The notes beneath the pieces are model-generated. The model did not search any database. It saw only the letters and a program-made list of their open reading frames with translations, and was not told the origin of the DNA. A stretch of DNA of 64,000 nt, from the NCBI GenBank assembly GCA_016192035.1, contig JACPUW010000018.1:1-64000 (forward strand), written 5' to 3'. The position numbers and the translations under genes were made by a program. Of this stretch, positions 1-10,075 are shown piece by piece (positions within the stretch are counted from its first letter, which is position 1; every line of letters begins with the position of its first letter). This stretch comes from Bacteroidota bacterium (GTDB taxonomy: Bacteria; Bacteroidota; Bacteroidia; CAILMK01; JACPUW01).

Positions 1-250
1 ACGTAACCACCTACTTTTGACATCACTTTTTGCGCTTACGAGGCTTCATCATTGGTTCACTTTCGTTCAGCTCATTGCATTTGCACCTACAGAAATTCTA
101 ATTTCCGTTTTTCCTTATCGCTCACCACAATGCAGTTTCCTTGCAATGCGGCATAAGGTGGTTTAATAACTATTCCTGAAAATCGTTATTGAGAGGCCTA
201 CTCTCATCTGTTTTAAAGCATCAGCGGCCTAAGGCCGCTATTCAAGTCAC
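1..250. other. Unresolved AT-rich left flank of the cassette array
   Basis: No intact gene is seen. On the minus strand two short open stretches lie in different frames. One reads IVIKPPYAALQGNC and ends KLEFL-stop. The other ends in a basic tail, MMKPRKRKK-stop, near position 44. They could be pieces of one frameshifted gene, perhaps an old cassette gene or a transposase tail. I cannot assign a family, and chance open frames are possible. The stretch lies on the distal side of the first attC-like element, where the next cassette of the array would be expected. Confidence 0.3.
223..239. repeat. Short perfect palindrome (8-bp arms)
   Basis: AGCGGCCT-A-AGGCCGCT has two perfect 8-bp arms around one base. 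It sits just outside the leftmost attC-like element, in otherwise AT-rich sequence. Its role is unknown. It could be a hairpin or terminator remnant, or a protein-binding site. Confidence 0.5.
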
Positions 251-379
251 ACACGTTTTGCAGCTACCCGAAGGTGGCGATTTCGAAGCACTTCACTGTC
301 AACCAAGCAAAAACTTTGATAGAAGCACAAAGCTTGATTTAACCACTGAACCGCCACTTTTGGGTAGGTGCTGTTATGC
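251..379 (-). repeat. attC-like element 1
   Basis: An imperfect palindrome of about 128 bp. The left arm (TTTTGCAGCTACCCGAAGGT) pairs with the right arm (CCACTTTTGGGTAGGTGCTG). The right end is GTTATGCAC. Read on the minus strand this gives GTGCATAAC directly behind the stop of the gene at 389-1030, as an R''-type core. The left core is degenerate: CACACG replaces the TAACG seen in the others. It is about 96% identical to the element at 3127-3264, with roughly five differences by eye. Confidence 0.8.
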
Positions 380-388
380 ACAGTAGTT

Positions 389-1030
389 CTATATACCATA
401 ATTGTCACAAAGTTTTCTAAGAAGTCCTTTTCTATCTGTCTCTGCTTGTTCAAATTCTTTTTCGTCAACGCCTATTTTGTAATTGTCAAACATATAGAAA
501 TAACTACAACAATGATAACAATCAAGCTTTTGAATATTGCTTAGTCCCTTCTCAAGAATTGCAATTGTATTTTCTATCCCTTTTTTCTTCACTGTCAATT
601 GGTAAAACCTTTTGTCAATTGGATAATGCCATTTCTCAAAAGATATCAGTCCTGGTGACAAGCAATTTATTGCACTATCAAGTTCTCCAATAAATTCATA
701 CGCAAAAGAATACTTCAAGAGTTTGTCAAGCTTATATTCCCAATAGTCATTTGCATCTGAATAAATATTTTCTCTTTGTTTTTCATTAAATGTCCCACGA
801 AAACTTAATGCTATACGATAATATTTTTCTGCTTCAATGCTATCTCCGATGTTTAACTTATTTTCAGCTATTTTCCAATTCTTATCAAAATATGTCTGGT
901 TGGGTTGAAATGGATTTAAAAATAAAATACGGTCTTGCCCCGATTTTATATAAGTGAATTTCGCAAAGTAAAATATCGTCAGTCCAACTATCAGAATAAT
1001 TGTCAAGGTTATCTTGGCGATGGCTTTCAT
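389..1030 (-). CDS. Membrane-anchored hypothetical protein (cassette gene)
   Basis: Encodes 213 aa of no family I recognise. The start at 1030 (MKAIAKITLT) is chosen because the longer frame runs into the attC-like element, and because this start gives a clean N-terminal hydrophobic helix (about residues 5-25) before a soluble domain. That layout suggests a membrane anchor or uncleaved signal. The soluble part is helical in appearance, with possible TPR-like stretches (AEKYYRIALSF; ENTIAILEKGL), so a protein-protein interaction role is conceivable but not shown. A CYHCCSY cysteine cluster lies near residue 180. The gene is AT-rich and fills cassette 255-1044, with its start about 10 bp from one element and its stop about 10 bp from the next. 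The same tight packing is seen for every gene in this array. Confidence 0.75.
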   Translation of the reverse strand: MKAIAKITLTIILIVGLTIFYFAKFTYIKSGQDRILFLNPFQPNQTYFDKNWKIAENKLNIGDSIEAEKYYRIALSFRGTFNEKQRENIYSDANDYWEYKLDKLLKYSFAYEFIGELDSAINCLSPGLISFEKWHYPIDKRFYQLTVKKKGIENTIAILEKGLSNIQKLDCYHCCSYFYMFDNYKIGVDEKEFEQAETDRKGLLRKLCDNYGI

Positions 1031-1038
1031 ACTATTGT

Positions 1039-1171
1039 GCATAACGTTTTCGGGCTTTGCGTTCGGGCGGGTTTCGGAGCACAAAACTGTCTGCCAGCAC
1101 TACACTTGAATAGAAGCACAAAACTCCAAGTTTGCACGTCACCCCGCCTGACGCAAAACCCGTGTTAGCGG
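1039..1171 (-). repeat. attC-like element 2
   Basis: Begins ATAACGTT and ends GTGTTAGCGG. The inner arms CGGGCTTTGCG and CGCAAAACCCG, and GGCGGGT and ACCCCGCC, are inverted repeats with unpaired bases, as in attC hairpins. The middle holds the shared motifs GGAGCACAAAACTGTC and TAGAAGCACAAA. The left core TTATGCAC is complementary to the end of the cassette at 255-1044. The right core GTTAGCGGT matches the far end of the next cassette. Confidence 0.85.
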
Positions 1172-1189
1172 TTCGCCCTTCTTGTTTCG

Positions 1190-2071
1190 TCATATGATTT
1201 TGTTTACATCAATGTCATACCCTGCCGCTTTTAATTCTTTAGCCAAACTAATTTTCCAATACTCTGAACTGTCTATTTCTAAGTATAATAGTCCGTAAAG
1301 GTCACTTGGTAATTCAACGCCTTTTGTATAAAGTGGGCAAACTTTATTTCTTCCTAATTTCCCTATAAAATATCCGAGTTCAAGTATCACATTTTGTCTT
1401 GCTCGTGGATTTAAATTTTCATCTTTCTTTGCCTTTCCAAGGTCGTCATCTGTAAGCAATATGATTGCAAAACCTACATTTGAATGTTCTTCAAATTTTT
1501 CAATGATTGTTTTTCCAGAATTTGCTTGTTCGTGTAGAATTATTGGATTTAAGCCAAGTTTTTCCAATGTCCTTGCAATATTTATTTTTACTTCATTATT
1601 GTGTCCGTGAACAATAAACACATTATTGTTGCTTATATCTTCTGAACTCGTTGTCGAATTTGAAACAACTTTGTCAGGAACTTCGGATTTAATAAGCTCA
1701 ACTTTTGCAACAAGCTGTTTCAAGTTGTTTATTTTGTTTTGAACCTTGTCTTTAAACTCTTTCAGTTCGTCTCTTTGTCTGTTGCCACCAACTACCAACC
1801 CGAAGAATTGGTTAACTCTATCATAGTCAGTTTTATATTCGTTGTATTCGTTATTAAATGATTGTTTAAGAAGTTCCGAATTATAGTCGTCCCAGTCATA
1901 ATAATTTTGTTTTGCTTCTTCAAGCTGGGGTCTTGTCTGAATTTGTCTATTTAAAATTTCTTCTGCTATTTGAATTCTATTAGCTAGAACGTCTTTAAAA
2001 TAGTCCTTTCCAACAACTAAAAGTGTCGGTTGTTTTAATGGTTCTGTCTGTTTTGGTTTTCTTGTTGCCAT
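1190..2071 (-). CDS. TIR-like (predicted nucleotide-binding, PF10137-type) protein
   Basis: Encodes 293 aa. Residues 1-135 are charged and helical, probably a coiled-coil or sensing region. The C-terminal domain (about 149-285) matches the TIR-like predicted nucleotide-binding family: NNVFIVHGHN opens the Rossmann-like fold, followed by FAIILLTDDD and RARQNVILELGYFIGKLG. E231 in the VILELGYF motif is the likely catalytic glutamate. Characterised TIR relatives degrade NAD+ or sense nucleotide signals in anti-phage systems such as CBASS and Thoeris. No cyclase or ThsB-like partner lies next to it, so a stand-alone or differently triggered effector is inferred. The gene is the sole content of cassette 1045-2102. 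Its AT-rich composition suggests acquisition. Confidence 0.85.
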   Translation of the reverse strand: MATRKPKQTEPLKQPTLLVVGKDYFKDVLANRIQIAEEILNRQIQTRPQLEEAKQNYYDWDDYNSELLKQSFNNEYNEYKTDYDRVNQFFGLVVGGNRQRDELKEFKDKVQNKINNLKQLVAKVELIKSEVPDKVVSNSTTSSEDISNNNVFIVHGHNNEVKINIARTLEKLGLNPIILHEQANSGKTIIEKFEEHSNVGFAIILLTDDDLGKAKKDENLNPRARQNVILELGYFIGKLGRNKVCPLYTKGVELPSDLYGLLYLEIDSSEYWKISLAKELKAAGYDIDVNKII

Positions 2072-2093
2072 ATCTATTCTGTCTTTTTAGGGT

Positions 2094-2231
2094 GACCGCT
2101 AACGGTTTGGCGCTTGGCGCAGTGGCGGAATTCGGAGCACAAAACTGTCTATACACCACAAAAATTGATGCGAGGTAGAATGTTCAATTAACCACTTCAC
2201 CCGCCATTGAGCCAAACGCCTGTTAGCAACC
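2094..2231 (-). repeat. attC-like element 3
   Basis: Begins GCTAACGG and ends GCCTGTTAGCAACC. Arms GTTTGGCGCTTGGCG and CATTGAGCCAAACGCC, plus AGTGGCGG and CCGCCA, can pair. The middle contains GGAGCACAAAACTGTC, shared with element 2. The left core TTAGCGGT belongs to the cassette on its left. The right core GTTAGCAACC belongs to the cassette on its right. Confidence 0.85.
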
Positions 2232-2238
2232 GTAATTC

Positions 2239-3081
2239 TTAGTGTTTCGAAGTGTCTTGTCCTTTGCTGTATTTGATGTAAAATTTATCAGCCGAAACAT
2301 TCTTAAAATATTTTGTCATTGTCATACTTTTTTGTCCGCAATACTCATCATATTTTGATTCAAACATTTCGCTTTCTGGATAATTTGAAATTTCTGTTAC
2401 ATAAAATTCATTCTCAAATTTTATAAGGTTATCAGTCTGCCCTATGGTATAAGCAATTCTATTGCTGAAAACAAGAGGACTCTGTTCTTTTGAGAATGTC
2501 TTAGATTTAATCTGCTTTTTAGTTGGGTATTTAAATAAATCGCAATCTCTGAAAAATGAATCATTGATACTATATTCAGAAATAATCTTTGAAGTCTTTG
2601 ATGGAATACATACAATTTTTTCTTCATTGTAGGAAACTGAAAAACCTGAAGATGTCATTAACCCTACTGTATTAGTTGCTGAAATTCTATTCGTTTGAAT
2701 TAAATCCAAGTAATTTAATCCTGTTACTGATTTTGTTGCAGTTGTCCCACGAGAAGTATTTGCTCCTGAACTTGTCGAATTTGTAAAAACTCTATTTCTA
2801 TAGTAATTGTAAGAAACTCCGTTTAGAATAAAAAAACTTTCTTCCAAATTCAAGTAAATATTTTTGTCAGTTTTGTTAAAAAATTGGAACCCAATATTTC
2901 CACCTTCACCCCATAGGTTGTATGAAACCTTACAGTTTTCATCTTCATAAACTAAAAGGTTGTCCTTAACAACTAATTTGTCGGAAGGTGCTGTTTTATA
3001 AACTTGAAAATAAGATGTCGATACGCAAGATGTCAACATCATTGCAATTAATGCGGGTAAAAGGATTTTTTTGGTTTTCAT
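2239..3081 (-). CDS. Hypothetical lipoprotein (cassette gene)
   Basis: Encodes 280 aa with a lipoprotein signal: MKTKKILLP, a hydrophobic core, then MLTSC as lipobox with C19 as the lipidated residue. The mature part is rich in Ser, Asn, Tyr and Lys and reads as beta-rich. It has a low-complexity stretch NSTSSGANTSRGTT near residues 100-112. I recognise no family. It would sit in the inner or outer membrane facing the periplasm, or on the surface. It is the only gene of cassette 2103-3136, and its stop lies 10 bp from the attC-like element. Confidence 0.8.
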   Translation of the reverse strand: MKTKKILLPALIAMMLTSCVSTSYFQVYKTAPSDKLVVKDNLLVYEDENCKVSYNLWGEGGNIGFQFFNKTDKNIYLNLEESFFILNGVSYNYYRNRVFTNSTSSGANTSRGTTATKSVTGLNYLDLIQTNRISATNTVGLMTSSGFSVSYNEEKIVCIPSKTSKIISEYSINDSFFRDCDLFKYPTKKQIKSKTFSKEQSPLVFSNRIAYTIGQTDNLIKFENEFYVTEISNYPESEMFESKYDEYCGQKSMTMTKYFKNVSADKFYIKYSKGQDTSKH

Positions 3082-3126
3082 TGTTGATTTTATTTAAGTT
3101 AATAATGATGTGTTTCAGTTTTATTA

Positions 3127-3264
3127 TGGTTGCTAACGTTTTGCAGCTACCCGAAGGTGGCGATTTAGAAGCACTTCACTGTCAACCAAGCACAAACTTT
3201 GATAGAAGCACAGGGCTTGATTTAACCACTGAACCGCCACTTTTGGGTAGGTGTTGTTATGGGC
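3127..3264 (-). repeat. attC-like element 4
   Basis: Begins GGTTGCTAACGTTTTGCAG and ends GGTGTTGTTATGGGC. It has the same arm sequences as element 1 and differs from it at about five positions. Unlike element 1 it keeps the TAACG core. The left core (TTAGCAACC on the minus strand) matches the end of cassette 2103-3136. The right core (GTTATGGGC) matches the far end of cassette 3137-5060. Confidence 0.85.
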
Positions 3265-3274
3265 TGGGCATCGG

Positions 3275-4207
3275 TTATTCAATCAACTTAACGTCTTTGG
3301 CGATTTGCTCCCCCTTGTCATTTTTGGTTATACTAAATGATACTTTGTCACCGACTTCTAAGTCATTGAAATCTGTATCAATTAGGCTTGTAAAATGAAA
3401 AAATAGATTATTTGGAGGGTATTTAATGAAACCAAAACCTCCTTTGAGAGTTAAAATCTCGCTTGAATTGATTTTCTCAGTAGTTGAATCTGTTTTTACT
3501 TGTGATGTTCCTTCAGGTTTCTTAAAAACACGGTCTTTATTTTGTGGGACGAATAGGTTGTTAATCAATGGTTCGTTTTTTCTAACTCTGTTATCTATAA
3601 CTTCATGCATTGCAACTGGATAGGTCACTTCTTCTAATAAATCTTGGGAAGTTCTTGTTACCATTTCCTTACCATAGTTGTTTGTGTATTCAAAATCCCA
3701 GCTCAGCACCATGACTCTAGTGCCAAGAGTGTTTAGTTTTCGGATTAGAGGAACATAATCCCCATCTGATGCAATAAGAACAAGAACATTAAATCGTTTG
3801 TAGAATGCGAGTTCAAATGCTTCCAAAGCTAGCCAAACATCTATACCTTTTTCGTGCCTTACTCCGCTTTGGGAAGTTTTTACTGGCAAATAGTGAGTTG
3901 TTACACCTTCTGAGCTAAGAATATCATCAAACATTCTATCGTAGAAAAGTGAATTTCCTTGTTGAGATGCCTCTTGAGCATTTAATCTGCCTCTGAAATA
4001 ATGTGCATCTACTATTTGGCAAAGTCTCTCATCAGTGCCTTCTTGTTGAGCTACTTGGTTTCTTATAAAATGATGTAAACCAGAAATACTTATTCTGCTT
4101 TTTCTTTCATGGAAGTAGTTGTAAAAGTTACTCACATGAAGAAAGTAGTTTCCATCATAGAATACTCCGATTCTAGTAAGGCTTAGGTCTTTGTTGTTTG
4201 CGGTCAT
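3275..4207 (-). CDS. NYN-domain ribonuclease with C-terminal cold-shock domain
   Basis: Encodes 310 aa. The N-terminal NYN (PIN-like) domain spans about residues 12-190. Acidic residues expected to bind metal appear in GVFYDGNYF (D18), KGIDVWLALEA and LIASDGDYVPL. A linker leads to a cold-shock-type OB fold in the last 65 residues, with its two RNA-binding strands visible as GGFGFIKY and LFFHF. The protein is therefore best read as a metal-dependent RNase brought to single-stranded RNA by the OB fold. It is transcribed just downstream of another NYN gene (8 bp between 4213 and 4207 ends, same strand), and the two share cassette 3137-5060. Pairing of two NYN nucleases with different RNA-binding modules suggests joint action on RNA. 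The target is unknown. Confidence 0.85.
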   Translation of the reverse strand: MTANNKDLSLTRIGVFYDGNYFLHVSNFYNYFHERKSRISISGLHHFIRNQVAQQEGTDERLCQIVDAHYFRGRLNAQEASQQGNSLFYDRMFDDILSSEGVTTHYLPVKTSQSGVRHEKGIDVWLALEAFELAFYKRFNVLVLIASDGDYVPLIRKLNTLGTRVMVLSWDFEYTNNYGKEMVTRTSQDLLEEVTYPVAMHEVIDNRVRKNEPLINNLFVPQNKDRVFKKPEGTSQVKTDSTTEKINSSEILTLKGGFGFIKYPPNNLFFHFTSLIDTDFNDLEVGDKVSFSITKNDKGEQIAKDVKLIE

Positions 4208-4212
4208 CTTTA

Positions 4213-5004
4213 TTATTTTATTTTTACGAATACATGTTTAATGTTGGCTTTTCCAGTAACTCTTTCATCAACTTCAATTGATGATATGCTTTTAACCAAT
4301 GGCACCAATTTAGTAAACCCATAGTTCCTAGAATCAAAATTAGATTTTTTCTTCAGAAGTAAATTCCCTACTTCAGCAAGCGAAGCCCAACCACTTTCAT
4401 CTGCTAAGTCTGTTATAGTATTTGTCAAAAGTTTAATTGCTTCTTCATCAATTTTGCTCACATTGGAGTTAGATGGAGTCGAAATTGTTTGCTTATTCTC
4501 TTTAGTTTTATTCGATTTTGAGGTAGGTGCCACAACTAGACCATCTCCAATTGTGCTAAGGACTTCGATATAAATAAACTTGTTACACGCAGATACGAAA
4601 GGGTTGGGCGTTTGCTTTTTCCCTAAACCAAATACTTTCATTCCTGCTTCTCTAAGTCTTGAGGCAAGTCTAGTAAAGTCACTATCACTGGAAACGAGGA
4701 AAAATCCCTCAACACGTCCGGTGTATAAAATATCCATTGCATCTATTATCATGGCCGAATCCGTTGCGTTCTTTCCAGTGGTATAAGCATACTGTTGTAT
4801 CGGGATGATGGAATTATCTAATAGGACTTTCTTCCAATGGTCTAGATTTGGCTTTGTCCAATCACCATAAATTCTTTTATAGGTAGGAGTGCCATATTTG
4901 GCTATTTCTTCAAGCATTTCACGAATATTGGCACTTGGGACATTGTCAGCATCGATTAAGACTGCTAATTTAATGTCGATGCTTGTTTCAATTGAAGTAT
5001 TCAT
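4213..5004 (-). CDS. NYN-domain ribonuclease with LOTUS/OST-HTH-like C-terminus
   Basis: Encodes 263 aa. The NYN domain covers about residues 10-150: LAVLIDADNVP carries D18 and D20, ATDSAMIIDAMDIL and FFLVSSDSDFTRLASRL complete the acidic site, followed by the typical GMKVFGLG strand. A Ser/Thr/Lys-rich linker leads to a winged-helix-like C-terminus (about 185-263, with DESGWASLAEVGNLLLKK and DSRNYGFTKLVPLV) that fits the OST-HTH/LOTUS family, an RNA-binding domain often fused to NYN in bacteria. It is the first gene of its cassette. The companion gene at 3275-4207 follows directly. The RNase role is family knowledge; the partnership is inferred. Confidence 0.85.
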   Translation of the reverse strand: MNTSIETSIDIKLAVLIDADNVPSANIREMLEEIAKYGTPTYKRIYGDWTKPNLDHWKKVLLDNSIIPIQQYAYTTGKNATDSAMIIDAMDILYTGRVEGFFLVSSDSDFTRLASRLREAGMKVFGLGKKQTPNPFVSACNKFIYIEVLSTIGDGLVVAPTSKSNKTKENKQTISTPSNSNVSKIDEEAIKLLTNTITDLADESGWASLAEVGNLLLKKKSNFDSRNYGFTKLVPLVKSISSIEVDERVTGKANIKHVFVKIK

Positions 5005-5052
5005 AGTAATGATTAATTGGTTATCTCAGTTAATTGTTGTCGTTTTTGCCTT

Positions 5053-5188
5053 GCCCATAACGTTCGGCCGCTTTGCGAAGGCGGGGATTTTCAGCACTAA
5101 ACTTCATTAAATGCACAAAGCTTGGATTTAGCACTTCTCTGTCATAGAAGGACGAAACCCCCGCTTTTGCAAAACGGCTGTTGGCGGT
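5053..5188 (-). repeat. attC-like element 5
   Basis: Begins CCCATAACGTTCGGCCGCTTTGCG and ends ACGGCTGTTGGCGGTTCG. Arms CGGCCGCTTTGCGAAGGCGG and CCGCTTTTGCAAAACGGCTG pair with bulges. The interior has CAGCAC and TGCACAAAGC, echoing the GCACAAA motif of the other elements. The left core TTATGGGC matches the end of cassette 3137-5060. The right core GTTGGCGGT matches the start of cassette 5061-8256. Confidence 0.85.
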
Positions 5189-5201
5189 TCGTTGTTCTTT
5201 G

Positions 5202-7127
5202 TCAGTCGAATTTAAGTTGTCCATTGTCAATTAGTTCTGCATACATTGTTGCACCTTTTTTAGTTATTTTTATTCTGTCTTGCAATTGACTATTTATAAG
5301 GTTTTCAACGTCTCCATTTGTCTTGAAGCTTTTGGAAAGGCTTTTTAAGTCAGCAAGTTTCAATTTCTTTTTCAACTCTACTTGTTCAAGAATTTGACTA
5401 CCTAAAACTGAAATTGTTGGTGTGTATTTTTCAGTTGGCTCATTTACAGTATTTGATTCGATTGATGAAGCCTTTAAATCTTCTTCAATTTGTTCCTTTT
5501 TTTCTTGCTCGGTCTTGCTTTGGGAGCTTTCAAATTCTATATGTCTTTCCGTTTTATTTTTTTGATATTCTCCAATTGTTTCAGAGTATGCGGAAATTAA
5601 TGTCTTAACATTTGATTTGTCTTCGGTAATAGATTCTGTTAAGGTCTTTGGGAGAATTGCTGCCCCATAAATGCTACCCCAAAGAGTGTAGTAAATTAAT
5701 GAGTGTTGAATTTCTTCTCTTTCATTGTTTTCAATGAACCTTAAGAAATCCCTACCTGATGTAAACAGAACAGCTATAGATTTTAAAACTTCGTTTGAAG
5801 TTCTTGAAATGTCAAAACCGCCCCTTAGGCTGTCAAATGATTTTAGTAATTCAACAAGATATTCCCGCTCTTTAGAACCGTCAAAATTGTCAATTGTGTC
5901 TTTAAAGTGTTTGGCAAGGTCAATGAGAATAGTTTTTCGATTAGTGAAAAAAGTTTCAAGGTCAGGGATGTTGTCAGTTTCAATGAAGAATTTCAAGCAT
6001 TGAAGCAAATATTTCTTTTCATTTTCTAAAAGACCTTCTGGAATAAATAGTTCCATTTTGTCATTTACAAAATGGGGTCTTACAAGTGACTCAAATGTTA
6101 GCTTGTTGGTTTTTCTTGATAGATTAATTTCATCTTCAATTTTATTTCTAACATCTGAAAATGCATTGTTGACTCTTTCAATATAGTTACTTGGATACTT
6201 TGAATTGAACTTTGAATTAATTGCTCTTTTTAGTTTTTCTAGCTTTAGTGAAAGTGGAAGTTCTGCCTTTGATGTTATAAGTAAACCTTCAATAAGAAGA
6301 TTAAATGCAGATATGCCAAATACTTTAGATTGTTTTAGGGTGTTTAGTAACTCAGATGTGAATGAAGAATTAGAACCTAACATTATAGCTTCTTCTAATT
6401 TTTCAACTGTTTCATAAGTCTTGAGTATTTTGTCAATTATTTCTAAAACCTGCTTTTTTTCAAATTCATTATTGTCCGAAACCTTGTTTAGAAACAATGA
6501 AAGGTTGTTATTCAAAAACCTTAGCAGAATTGAAATTTCTTGCCATTCTTTTGTCGTTAAATTTGTATAAGCAATTGAACTACCTAGAATAGCACCAAGT
6601 ATTCTGTTTAGTTTTCTTTCCTTATAGAAAGTCAAGGAATTGAAATTGTTATTAACGGTTGGAAATACTATTAATGGTATTTCATTGACGTAGCAATCTA
6701 CTTTTATAACTTCAGAATTTTGTTTCGCCAAAGCAGAATACTTTGTTTCTATACTCTTTAATGACTTAGCAAAGGTTTCATTGAGTTCTTTCTCTCTCCT
6801 GAACAATAATTTGAAGTTGTTAAACAGAAATACAGTATTATCAATTATTACATAATTGAGTCCATTTTCTGTAGTTTGCCATTTGCTTTCGGTTTTTTCA
6901 ATTTCAATTTCAATTAAGACTGGAAAGCCATAGTCCTTGTCAAGTTCTCGGTTGTGGAATATGGGTTTTTCATAGCCAACCAAAAAGTCTTCACATTCAT
7001 TTAAAAAGGTCGTTGTTGCCCTTTTGAAACTGTATTTTCTATTAGGATAAAAGGAACAGGGCGAAATTGATAGTGTTGTAAAAACACTATTGAAGTCGTT
7101 TGAATTGAACGGAATATATACTCTCAT
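5202..7127 (-). CDS. Large hypothetical protein paired with an SF1 helicase (cassette gene)
   Basis: Encodes 641 aa. I recognise no domain and see no signal peptide or membrane helix. The first 110 residues look like a mixed alpha/beta fold, the middle (about 110-520) is helical, and a charged linker near 540-580 (ERHIEFESSQSKTEQEKKEQ) leads to a C-terminal piece resembling a winged helix (KSLSKSFKTNGDVENLINS). It is downstream of the helicase gene, 12 bp apart on the same strand, in the same cassette (5061-8256). The pair is therefore probably one functional unit. Helicases coupled to an unknown large partner are common in phage-defence modules, but no direct evidence of that role is present here. 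Confidence 0.75.
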   Translation of the reverse strand: MRVYIPFNSNDFNSVFTTLSISPCSFYPNRKYSFKRATTTFLNECEDFLVGYEKPIFHNRELDKDYGFPVLIEIEIEKTESKWQTTENGLNYVIIDNTVFLFNNFKLLFRREKELNETFAKSLKSIETKYSALAKQNSEVIKVDCYVNEIPLIVFPTVNNNFNSLTFYKERKLNRILGAILGSSIAYTNLTTKEWQEISILLRFLNNNLSLFLNKVSDNNEFEKKQVLEIIDKILKTYETVEKLEEAIMLGSNSSFTSELLNTLKQSKVFGISAFNLLIEGLLITSKAELPLSLKLEKLKRAINSKFNSKYPSNYIERVNNAFSDVRNKIEDEINLSRKTNKLTFESLVRPHFVNDKMELFIPEGLLENEKKYLLQCLKFFIETDNIPDLETFFTNRKTILIDLAKHFKDTIDNFDGSKEREYLVELLKSFDSLRGGFDISRTSNEVLKSIAVLFTSGRDFLRFIENNEREEIQHSLIYYTLWGSIYGAAILPKTLTESITEDKSNVKTLISAYSETIGEYQKNKTERHIEFESSQSKTEQEKKEQIEEDLKASSIESNTVNEPTEKYTPTISVLGSQILEQVELKKKLKLADLKSLSKSFKTNGDVENLINSQLQDRIKITKKGATMYAELIDNGQLKFD

Positions 7128-7139
7128 TTTGTCATTTCT

Positions 7140-8195
7140 TTAGAAGGGTAAATCGCTGCTTGCAGATGATTTGTTTTTTTCGTTGTGATACTCAAACAAG
7201 TTTCTGTCAATGTTTGCAATGAAAGTAGAAAGGTGGTTTGAATACAGGATGAATAAATCTCTATAGCTCCTTGTTAAAGCTACATAAAGAGGATTTCTAT
7301 CTTTCTCGTCACCGGAAATACACATAGGAATGAAAACTGCTTCAAATTGCAACCCTTTTGCACTATGGTATGTCATTAGCTTTGGGTTGTCTGTTTTAAA
7401 GTCCAAATCCATAGAACCTGCACCATATCCAATCTTAGCTTCAACTCCCCATTTTTTACTGTCGAAATATTTTTTTGCGGTTTGAACATCATTGTTGGTC
7501 GGAAATAAAATGCCAACGTCTGTATAATTTTGAGCTTTAACTACATCAATTATGTAATCAAGTTGGTCATTGAACGTGGAGCACTCTACAAGACGTGGTT
7601 TATTTACTCCTTCTTTGTTACACCTGTCAACAAGTGGGTCGTTAGATAAACTTACTTTTTCTGCAACTCTAGCAACTTTCTTTGGTAGTCTATGGTTAAT
7701 AACCAAATTCTCCATAGGGATTCCAGTTTGAATTTGGATTTCTTCCATTGTCAATAGTTTCCCCTTATTAGGCACATTTTTGTATAACTGTTGTGCAGAG
7801 TCCCCAAATAAAATAAAATGCTTTTTGGCTGCTTGTTGCAATTCTCTTAATTCATCAGTATCGAAGTCTTGAACTTCGTCAACGATGATATATTCTGCCG
7901 ATGGTTTGTCTCGTCTGTTTATCCATTCCCAATGATAAAGAACCTTTGATTCGTCAACCCCAATGGTGTGAATACCATCTTCAATGAATTGTTTTAGTGC
8001 TTTAGTAAAGACGATAATTAGGTAGTCATTATTCCCTTGCTCAGCAAGTTCTTTTGCTCTCCATAGTGCTAGAACGGTTTTTCCACTTCCTGCACACCCT
8101 TTAACAATGAATGAACTGTTTAGATTTCGTCTTACGATTCTTACTTGATAGTCGTCAAGTTCTGATTCGTTTATATACCAAGATTCTTTTGCCAT
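7140..8195 (-). CDS. UvrD/Rep-like superfamily 1 helicase-type ATPase
   Basis: Encodes 351 aa, short for a full UvrD (about 700 aa). It keeps the core motor motifs: a Q motif (LDDYQ, Q17), Walker A GCAGSGKT (33-40), Walker B with the DEVQDF signature (about 100-108), LFGDSAQQLY (motif III region), motif V-like MTYHSAKGLQFEAV and motif VI LYVALTRSYRDLFILYS. The 1B and 2B insertion domains are missing or minimal, so processive unwinding is doubtful. It may translocate on DNA or RNA, or act as a switch for its neighbour. It is the first gene of the array-proximal cassette and is followed at 12 bp by the 641-aa gene. Confidence 0.85.
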   Translation of the reverse strand: MAKESWYINESELDDYQVRIVRRNLNSSFIVKGCAGSGKTVLALWRAKELAEQGNNDYLIIVFTKALKQFIEDGIHTIGVDESKVLYHWEWINRRDKPSAEYIIVDEVQDFDTDELRELQQAAKKHFILFGDSAQQLYKNVPNKGKLLTMEEIQIQTGIPMENLVINHRLPKKVARVAEKVSLSNDPLVDRCNKEGVNKPRLVECSTFNDQLDYIIDVVKAQNYTDVGILFPTNNDVQTAKKYFDSKKWGVEAKIGYGAGSMDLDFKTDNPKLMTYHSAKGLQFEAVFIPMCISGDEKDRNPLYVALTRSYRDLFILYSNHLSTFIANIDRNLFEYHNEKNKSSASSDLPF

Positions 8196-8244
8196 ATTTT
8201 TTTCAATTAATGTCTGTTTTTGTCTGTGTAGAGTGTCTTTTTAC

Positions 8245-8300
8245 AATGACCGCCAACATCCGTATATACGCCACTCCACTTGAGCTATTGCGTATATATT
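8245..8300 (-). other. attI-like half site at the proximal end of the cassette array
   Basis: The sequence GACCGCCAACATCCG gives, on the minus strand, G followed by TTGGCGGT. This matches the core at the far end of the first cassette (element 5). Unlike the five inner elements it has no paired attC arm on its right. Instead it is followed by the perfect palindrome CGTATATACG (8261-8270) and a second copy of CGTATATA (8291-8298), which could be recombinase-binding repeats. All cassette genes read away from this point. It is therefore the expected place of an attI site; the assignment is inferred from position and core sequence. Confidence 0.55.
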
Positions 8301-8579
8301 GACTATGTGCGAGGTTTGAGACAGCCATACGCAGGTGCCGCTGCATCATCAAAACAATCCAAAGGACTCTGCTTTGTTTTGATGTGGATGGCCTTACCCA
8401 GGTGCGTACTTGAGTGGTCTTACTGAGCTCAAATCCCAAAGCCGATGGAATTCGGCGCGTATCGGCAATAAAACCACGCATGGCTCGGTGCCTGAGCAAG
8501 AGCCGCCTAAAGCCCAGCAAGCCAGATACATGAAATGTAAGTAAAGCGCTTAACATAGAGCAAAATTTTATTGACTTGA

Positions 8580-8587
8580 CAAATGTA
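8580..8587 (-). promoter_or_regulatory. Candidate promoter -7 box reading toward the cassette array
   Basis: On the minus strand TACATTTG matches the Bacteroidota TAnnTTTG box. A good TTTG partner about 20 bp upstream is not evident. Transcription from here would cross about 300 bp of untranslated leader and then the first cassette, as an integron Pc promoter would. The whole 8301-8781 stretch has no gene I can support on either strand, and in particular no tyrosine recombinase. Confidence 0.35.
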
Positions 8588-8781
8588 GGCCATAGTTTGG
8601 TATTTGATACACCCATTGAAAAAAAAAAGTCAAAAAAAATTAAGATACCCCACCTTTTTAGGTCTTTCTTGGGCTATCCTGCCAGGTATTTTGGCTTTGG
8701 CTGCCCAAATTGGTGCCCAAAACGGGGTGCGGGCATCATATCCGGGCAAACCGTTCATCCTCCCAATAACCCATTGGCTAC

Positions 8782-9291
8782 CTACTCTTTGGCAAAGGGC
8801 AGGGTATAGGCACCGTAGGTGTCAACCACGCGGACAAAGTATAGCCCGTGGGGCAGTTTTGATATGTCTATCTGCATGTTGCGACCGCGCACAGTGCCAA
8901 AGTCACGCACCAGGACGCCGCTGGGGCCCAATAAAAGTACCTGTCGGGTGCCGGCTTGTTGAAAAGCTAAGGTGAGCTGTGACCGCGCGGGGTTGGGGTA
9001 GAGCGATGGGCGGGCTTATGACTTGTCGGTCTGCGGATTGGAAGGGGAGCCAAGGGGTGGCAGCGAACTGCCGTCCGCCGTTTCCGCGCAGGCATACACC
9101 GTGTCAAGGTCGAGCCCGTATATATCTATGGTGCCCTGCAGCACATCGAGTTCGGACTGGGTGTGGCAGCTTATGTAGTCCAGTTCCACTTCGTCTTGTG
9201 TGGCTACCCAGGCTTGCACCCCGTTGAGCACGTTGATGGCCGTGGGCTGTGGCTTAAACAGCCTAATTTTTAAGGTGGATTGTGTTTCCAT
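8782..9291 (-). pseudogene. T9SS cargo gene fragment interrupted by an in-frame stop
   Basis: The minus strand reads 91 codons from ATG at 9291 to a TAA at 9016-9018. The same frame then continues without a break for 77 more residues to TAG at 8782-8784. The downstream part is a clear type A T9SS sorting domain: SLYPNPARSQL at its start, an ILSL/LPHGLYFVRV-type core and a short basic end. The upstream part (VQAWVATQDEVELDYISC) looks protein-like but belongs to no family I know. One base change would restore a 169-aa reading frame, but it has no signal peptide, so this is probably a decayed remnant of a larger exported protein. Readthrough or an assembly error are alternatives. Confidence 0.7.
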
Positions 9292-9297
9292 GTGTCA

Positions 9298-10075
9298 TAG
9301 GGTCGTGTGAGGGAATGTCGTTTTAAAGTAGTGGGGGGCCGAGTCGCTTAAACGTGTGTAAATGTTCTTAACCGTTAAGAACGACTGTGGGCAACCGCTT
9401 GTTGACAACACCTTTGCGGTACCAATAATTCTTATAATAGCGAAATGACTATACAAAATAACGGTACCCCTACACCCCTAAACCCCTAAAACCCCAGAGA
9501 ACCCTAGCACCCGTGCCCCGCTGCGCCCGTGTGTTTTCTTAAATCCTTTGCGCTCTTTGCGTCCTTGTCCCCCAACTACCCCGCCCATCCTTTTGCCTGA
9601 ACCTTGGCAGCAATCACATGATGGGGGCCCAGGCAAGCGGCCGTTCGCTGCGCCTCGCTATTGATCGGGCGTTTCCACCTGCATGGACACCCCCATTTCT
9701 ACTTGGCTCCAATTTGTCTAAAATGTTGCTTATCAATATCTTAATCCCCTTTATTCATACCAAAAAATAGGCTTCGCCAGGTCAGTCCCATTTTCCCCCT
9801 TTGGCAGGGTGTACTTTAGGCTAACTTAATAGGAAGGCCAAATGTAGCCAAAATTTCACTAGTGCCGCCTTTGGCACTATATTTTTTGATAGCCAACTCC
9901 ATTCACTTGATTATATGAAACTTATGCTCAAGTTCCGGGGCGTTTTCGGTTGACGTGTGCTTTACCACCGCTTCCGGTACATTTCAAGTCCCCCACGCTA
10001 TTGGATTCCATTTCCAAACAAGACCCTCTGGCCCCCATCATGTGTGGGCCAATGCCTTGATGCCTACCCGCCTAC
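9298..10075. other. Non-coding stretch with a 19-bp palindrome
   Basis: No gene is seen in this 780-bp gap on either strand. It holds the GTTCTTAAC-C-GTTAAGAAC palindrome, a C-rich stretch with repeated ACCCCTAAACCCC-like words near 9470-9500, and otherwise unstructured sequence. It separates the decayed T9SS gene from atpC. Confidence 0.5.
9364..9382. repeat. Perfect 9-bp-arm palindrome
   Basis: GTTCTTAAC-C-GTTAAGAAC is an exact inverted repeat with a single central base, about 70 bp upstream of the broken T9SS gene. The symmetry fits a dimeric regulator or recombinase-binding site better than a terminator, as there is no T run. Its function is unknown. Confidence 0.5.

Follow-up and report, generated by a model that had tools for sequence, protein, structure and literature searches.

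A dead, co-oriented integrase gene end with a probable attI heads a defence-gene cassette array in a Bacteroidota genome

The question raised by this locus is how a cassette array came to lie beside a core site with no integrase gene next to it: whether the integrase was lost, acts from elsewhere or is replaced by a different recombinase, three alternatives put forward in a first-pass annotation of the DNA. The window, the whole stretch of 64,000 nucleotides that was analysed, comprises bases 1–64000 of contig C8 in a 2.98-Mb, 44-contig Bacteroidota assembly. A minus-strand array of seven ORFs and five attC-like sites occupies positions 1–8257. As had been claimed for the cassette genes, all seven long ORFs (389–8195) lie on the minus strand and are directed away from the core site at 8252–8257. 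Read from that site, the array consists of:

7140–8195, minus strand: cassette 1, gene 1, UvrD-like helicase (Pfam; C3a187/GajB-like in PADLOC)
5202–7127, minus strand: cassette 1, gene 2, 641-residue protein without a family (ORF list, Pfam)
5054–5184, minus strand: attC 1 (covariance model CM R1, 122 bits)
4213–5004, minus strand: protein with NYN and OST-HTH/LOTUS domains (Pfam)
3275–4207, minus strand: protein with NYN and cold-shock domains (Pfam)
3130–3260, minus strand: attC 2 (CM R1, 134 bits)
2239–3081, minus strand: lipoprotein-like cassette ORF (ORF list, Pfam)
2096–2226, minus strand: attC 3 (CM R1, 132.5 bits)
1190–2071, minus strand: CAP12/Pycsar-type TIR protein, candidate defence system PDC-S35 (Pfam, 9e-39; PADLOC, 1.5e-84)
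1038–1168, minus strand: attC 4 (CM R1, 123 bits)
389–1084, minus strand: cassette ORF without a family (ORF list, Pfam)
247–377, minus strand: attC 5, with its 3′ core interrupted by a group II intron (CM R1, 133 bits; Rfam RF01999 at 85–205)

The attC covariance model was seeded from the window's own sites; a home-made scan by core motifs, in which the antisense control was not separated, was dropped in its favour. The five sites form the tandem hairpins with RYYYAAC...GTTRRRY cores that characterize an integron. The intron that splits attC 5 is represented by its 5′ part (85–251, minus strand; Rfam RF01999, 98 bits), which begins with GTGTGACTTG, and the contig end falls within it. The neighbouring NYN genes at 3275–5004, one with a cold-shock domain and the other with a LOTUS domain, share a cassette and are a possible RNA-targeting defence pair.

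On the far side of the core site, the sequence is not unique. Comparison of positions 8245–9400 with the rest of the genome returned 13 other matching places, and in nearly every copy the similarity begins at the proposed junction (RYYYAAC followed by ATCCGTATATACG) while the left flanks are unrelated. The core reads GCCAAC before ATCC in the window and GCTAAC, CATAAC, TATAAC, CCCAAC, CACAAC and alike elsewhere, with TTAC or CTAC in two copies; the C13a and C13b copies are poor cases that have no proper core at the junction. One copy was probably split by assembly between contigs C27 (its end) and C13 (its start), so the modules number about 12. The first-pass annotation had staked its proposal on whether the sequence would recur without this junction; it does recur in the genome, and nearly all copies are joined at the predicted base. 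Unlike this edge, the upstream end of the module is diffuse, the homology fading at differing lengths between copies. A separate match of 37 identical bases between window positions 9364–9400 and the end of contig C31 (G000:C31:186517-186553) likely belongs to another repeat family. From the junction outwards, the window copy comprises:

8252–8258, minus strand: proposed recombination junction, at which the cassette core RYYYAAC/GTTRRRY (8252–8257, GTTGGC on the minus strand) is fused to the attI side (ATCC...) (homology stops sharply here in about 12 genomic copies, whose left flanks are unrelated)
8258–8302, minus strand: putative attI, 45 nt from the dead integrase stop to the junction (dyad; layout as found 3′ of the relatives' intact integrases)
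8303–8616, minus strand: decayed 3′ remnant of a tyrosine-recombinase (integrase) gene with its TAG stop at 8303–8305, the catalytic region deleted and the frame shifted (tblastn on paralogous leaders, frame table, alignment)
8580–8587, minus strand: TACATTTG, a Bacteroidota −7-like box (TAnnTTTG) and possible array promoter (TAnnTTTG kept in the paralogous copies that reach that far)

The short motifs picked out earlier (GCCAAC at 8252–8257, CGTATATACG at 8261–8270, CGTATATA at 8291–8298 and the minus-strand TACATTTG) are all present where they had been placed. CGTATATACG and CGTATATA, first described as two copies, are instead the arms of a single dyad formed by TATATACGC (8263–8271) and GCGTATATA (8290–8298) around an 18-nt spacer (TATATACGC-N18-GCGTATATA). 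The spaced pattern CGTATATAN{15,35}CGTATATA occurs far above chance, with four matches in the genome (one forward, three reverse) against none on either strand for the reversed-pattern control. Positions 8258–8302 behave as had been expected of an attI, with one exact junction in about 12 places beside unrelated gene sets. Across the copies the outer block ATAGTCAATATATACGCAATAG is almost invariant, and the junction-side arm has decayed in C38, C36, C13a, C17, C9 and C13b.

The leader next to this site proves to be what is left of an integrase gene. It had been reported that 8300–8780 carries no recombinase-like frame; this holds for an intact gene, no frame of recombinase length being found in 8258–8780, and fails for the decayed, frameshifted tyrosine-recombinase 3′ end that stops at 8303–8305. 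A profile of the leaders gave weak matches inside tyrosine-recombinase genes of two other genomes (G014 and G023), and an integrase profile matches the C31, C7 and C13 leaders. In tblastn searches with the relatives' recombinases, the C31 copy is matched with 49% identity over 51 residues (E=3e-9), and weaker matches fall in the C7, C17, C18, C13b and C19 leaders. The stop codon of the gene is retained in nearly all copies, most of which carry a frame shift between the tyrosine region and the C-terminal tail. A conserved small protein was considered for the leader and set aside: open frames exist, but the frame varies by part and by copy and the catalytic residues are gone, which is why the leader is read as a decayed gene. 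The remnant reads on the minus strand, toward the cassettes; a module that joins a dead integrase 3′ end to attI and is transcribed in this direction implies that the integrase lay behind attI and not divergent from it.

The reading that we favour, with a probability of roughly 80%, is that 8258 to about 8616 is the attI-bearing remnant of an integron-like platform, in which the dead, co-oriented 3′ end of a tyrosine-recombinase gene and its attI have been copied and served in trans. Another reading explains the conservation of the leader by a role in defence-gene expression, as a promoter or as a structured RNA, instead of by recombination at the site. The TAnnTTTG box is indeed retained in the copies that extend to it and the ATAGTCAATATATACGCAATAG block hardly varies, but the consensus fold of the leader amounts to −4 kcal/mol with 10 pairs and matches no Rfam family, so that a structured RNA was rejected, and neither the single-base junction nor the integrase homology is accounted for. 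We regard this alternative as having only a slender chance of being the explanation, while a promoter or leader function is compatible with the platform as a secondary role. The TACATTTG box, which lies inside the dead gene and has no clear −33 element, is a candidate array promoter that may be incidental.

The copies of the dead module bear on how it came to head different arrays. In the alignment, the same stretch of about 110 nt inside the gene is missing from the window copy and from C35, C38 and C36. C7, C17, C18 and C13b have both catalytic residues, H and R, replaced in common (LRHSYATHLL to LPRAYAAQLL-like). In the leader tree, which is nested, C31 is the least changed copy. As these inactivating lesions are common to most copies, the dead module itself multiplied, after its inactivation. 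The window and C35 modules have their lesion in common and are 93% identical, but the genes that abut them differ, as judged by eye (a helicase pair and a subtilase-like protein, respectively), which points to a recombinase acting in trans. Action in trans after loss of the cis gene is probably the simplest reading. The gene sets that follow the modules include:

C38 module: type III restriction-modification
C7 module: type II restriction-modification and control protein
C17 module: NotI-like nuclease and methyltransferase
C19 module: NsnA/NsnB
C18 module: AriA/AriB-like pair
C13a module: RhuM
C31 module: Fic protein
Window module: helicase and TIR protein

The C31, C18, C7 and C9 leaders are accompanied by attC sites, all on the array strand. 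The covariance-model search found none downstream of the C35, C38, C36, C13a, C17 and C19 copies, whose gene sets may have decayed or entered by another way. The C18 array closes, about 3870–3895 nt beyond its junction (array strand), with the left half of a truncated attC fused to other DNA.

The enzyme that would have served these sites is absent from the assembly. Searches with a general family profile and a specific one found no intact integrase there, but only XerC, XerD, one transposon-type integrase and the leaders; the sister species (G001) has attC matches, with neither a leader match nor an intact integrase. Of the alternatives posed at the outset, loss of the integrase is borne out for the cis gene, whose dead 3′ end is all that adjoins attI here, whereas the gene adjoins it in relatives. 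Modules that share one remnant and hold different cassettes imply that a recombinase once acted from elsewhere, but no intact enzyme is found in the present assembly.

In other Bacteroidota, cultured Flavobacterium included, an intact gene lies directly upstream of the same attI. The alignment of the relatives' recombinase covers 80 loci, among them cultured Flavobacterium, Pedobacter, Pelobium and Cyclobacterium. A search of these loci (922 kb) with the window-derived attC model yielded 150 matches, all on the recombinase strand and 149 of them downstream, although it took in 559 kb upstream and 279 kb downstream of the recombinase. Sites of this kind occur in 34 of 40 genomes. A set of 59 such sites from relatives shows the pairing of a conserved hairpin: 85% of pair cells are paired (57% when shuffled), covariation is 0.604 (shuffled, 0.181) and 318 cells carry compensatory double changes (shuffled, 107.5). 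At 73 of the 80 loci a site ending TATA-N5-G^TT (TATA at −9 to −6 of G^TT) follows the integrase stop, so that the fixed G^TT insertion point of the roughly 12 copies here is also the relatives' consensus. Among these 73 loci, the stop codon lies 64–104 nt from the junction in nearly all, TAnnTTT(G/A) occurs within 45 nt of the stop in 53, and 25 have dyad arms of 9 bp or more (2% of shuffles). An integrase just beyond the site in the usual divergent orientation, as the first-pass annotation had anticipated, is thus not what is seen: the relatives' gene is on the cassette strand and for the most part ends those 64–104 nt before the junction. Contigs end within 300 nt of the integrase stop at 18 of the 80 loci and within that distance of its start at two, a clustering expected of a repeated or population-variable attI.

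Truncated or decayed integrase 3′ ends also occur at arrays of other genomes. In G003 a single intact gene is accompanied by five or more truncated 3′ ends, of which the C120 and C17 tails are followed by same-strand attC sites; G005 has two 54-codon integrase tails within an array. In G026, attI and then an attC follow a tail of about 100 residues, while G058 and G077 carry decayed copies of the tail. Such modules are therefore not peculiar to the source species. The G005 array (L147, 15190–15600, 17580–17980 and 18920–19001) contains a repeated unit of about 370 bp, in which some 170 nt that are not integrase sequence precede the final 54 codons of the integrase gene and attI; the first part of this unit looks group-II-intron-like.

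The layout in relatives also bears on the idea that the 8258–8600 module is itself mobile (an insertion sequence, retroelement or intron) and inserts beside the attC core GTT, merely marking arrays. Dispersal of the module, its subfamily-like tree, its one sharp end and the group II intron within an attC of the window array would fit such an element. However, the other end fades at differing lengths, no inverted repeats or target duplications are seen, the flank is the start of a gene and not a half attC continuing beyond, and the relatives have the same junction 64–104 nt after an integrase gene, all of which makes this account highly improbable.

The relatives' enzyme differs from canonical integron integrases. 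It scores below the cut-off of TIGR02249 and aligns with it only as two segments, at about 2–180 and 238–315; where IntI4 has 64 residues, it has 22. Its AlphaFold model (pLDDT 84, pTM 0.53) has no extra helix at the position of the IntI-specific domain, and its top structural matches are XerA-type enzymes, followed by IntI4. By its sequence and predicted structure, the recombinase is not a canonical IntI and does not carry the IntI-specific additional domain of about 42 residues by which an integron integrase is otherwise recognized. This agrees with the third alternative, a different recombinase. The search of the full genome for IntI-like enzymes advised by the first-pass annotation gave none over the cut-off, and no canonical IntI above the curated cut-off was found in 100 genomes (the source genome and 99 relatives). 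The one strong IntI1-like N terminus, on G002:C281 (L071) in a metagenome-assembled genome of the same family, was set aside: it belongs to a class 1 integron fragment with aadA, and the contig is probably a stray one from contamination. In the intact integrases (L123–L248) the recombinase is preceded by a small domain of about 60 N-terminal residues, in which two Trp are invariant; this domain is predicted to fold as strand-strand-helix-strand-strand-helix, and in L131 two such domains seem to lie in tandem. It weakly resembles HARP/DUF5710, an identity that is not claimed, the Pfam matches being sub-threshold. A patch-less integron integrase in Bacteroidota is not described in the literature searched, which was covered in part, and an earlier description is possible.

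These comparisons also weigh on an ordinary CALIN, in which a canonical integron lost intI once and left an attI and an array. The window does hold an attC array with no intact integrase, and CALINs are common (PMC8618304, PMC9668308). Such a history does not, however, produce about 12 homologous attI modules with the same dead integrase 3′ end, the ancestral enzyme had no IntI domain and the opposite orientation, and none of the 100 genomes has a canonical IntI above the cut-off. It is very unlikely, and as a full account it is mostly refuted.

We infer instead, from sequence, an integron-like platform of a new variant whose cis integrase has been inactivated. The enzyme of this family would cleave the G^TT that borders attI and join attI to the attC hairpin of a circular cassette, presumably used in single-stranded form, so that cassettes would enter directly downstream of attI and be transcribed away from it. 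In the source genome the cis integrase would have died, the dead module of integrase 3′ end and attI would have multiplied by some copying route to about 12 loci, and each module would have captured different cassettes, mainly anti-phage defence genes, through a trans recombinase now missing from the assembly. More broadly, we lean slightly towards the view that Bacteroidota possess a class-wide integron of their own, whose integrase handles folded attC without the I2 domain, perhaps by means of its N-terminal domain, and that in some lineages copies of the dead integrase 3′ end and attI act as separate docking sites, so that a single genome has a dozen places to capture defence genes, served by one trans enzyme.

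In the IntegronFinder 2.0 results, complete integrons are essentially missing from Bacteroidetes, apart from one in Salinibacter (PMC9024848). Integron recombination has been said to require the extra IntI domain (Messier and Roy 2001, as cited in PMC9668308 and PMC7790495). Should attC arrays across the phylum be run by a patch-less recombinase, the IntI-specific domain would not be essential to the reaction, IntI-based searches would have overlooked a large reservoir of cassettes, and cultured Flavobacterium would offer a test of how an integron integrase evolved from Xer. A dozen dead-integrase docking sites in one genome, full of defence systems, would represent a new layout for defence-gene capture.

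Among known systems, the platform resembles Vibrio-type chromosomal integrons in its attI–attC junction G^TTRRRY, its attC hairpins of about 130 nt, the length of Vibrio VCRs, and its co-directional cassettes with defence genes. It departs from them in a recombinase devoid of the IntI-specific domain, an integrase that reads toward the array and the dispersal of dead-integrase attI copies in a single genome. XerA-type tyrosine recombinases (PDB 5hxy; NF040815) are the nearest matches of the relatives' recombinase in sequence and fold. The relatives' enzyme, unlike XerA, has an extra N-terminal domain of about 60 residues. We know of no action of XerA on attC arrays. Integrase and cassettes are co-directional in Treponema integrons as well, in which an enzyme identified as IntI is transcribed toward attI in the cassette direction (PMC3607928); those are spirochete systems, whereas the enzyme here is patch-less and from Bacteroidota, with many dead attI modules per genome. 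With CALINs (PMC8618304, PMC9024848) the locus shares an attC array that has no intact integrase nearby, but attI and the integrase's own 3′ end, neither of which remains in a CALIN, are kept at each array. Finally, Delta-attI-type cassettes of class 1 and 2 mobile integrons carry partial attI sequences that are multiplied beside genes, as here, and still recombine (PMC12901181), whereas the modules described here are chromosomal, carry the integrase gene tail and head arrays.
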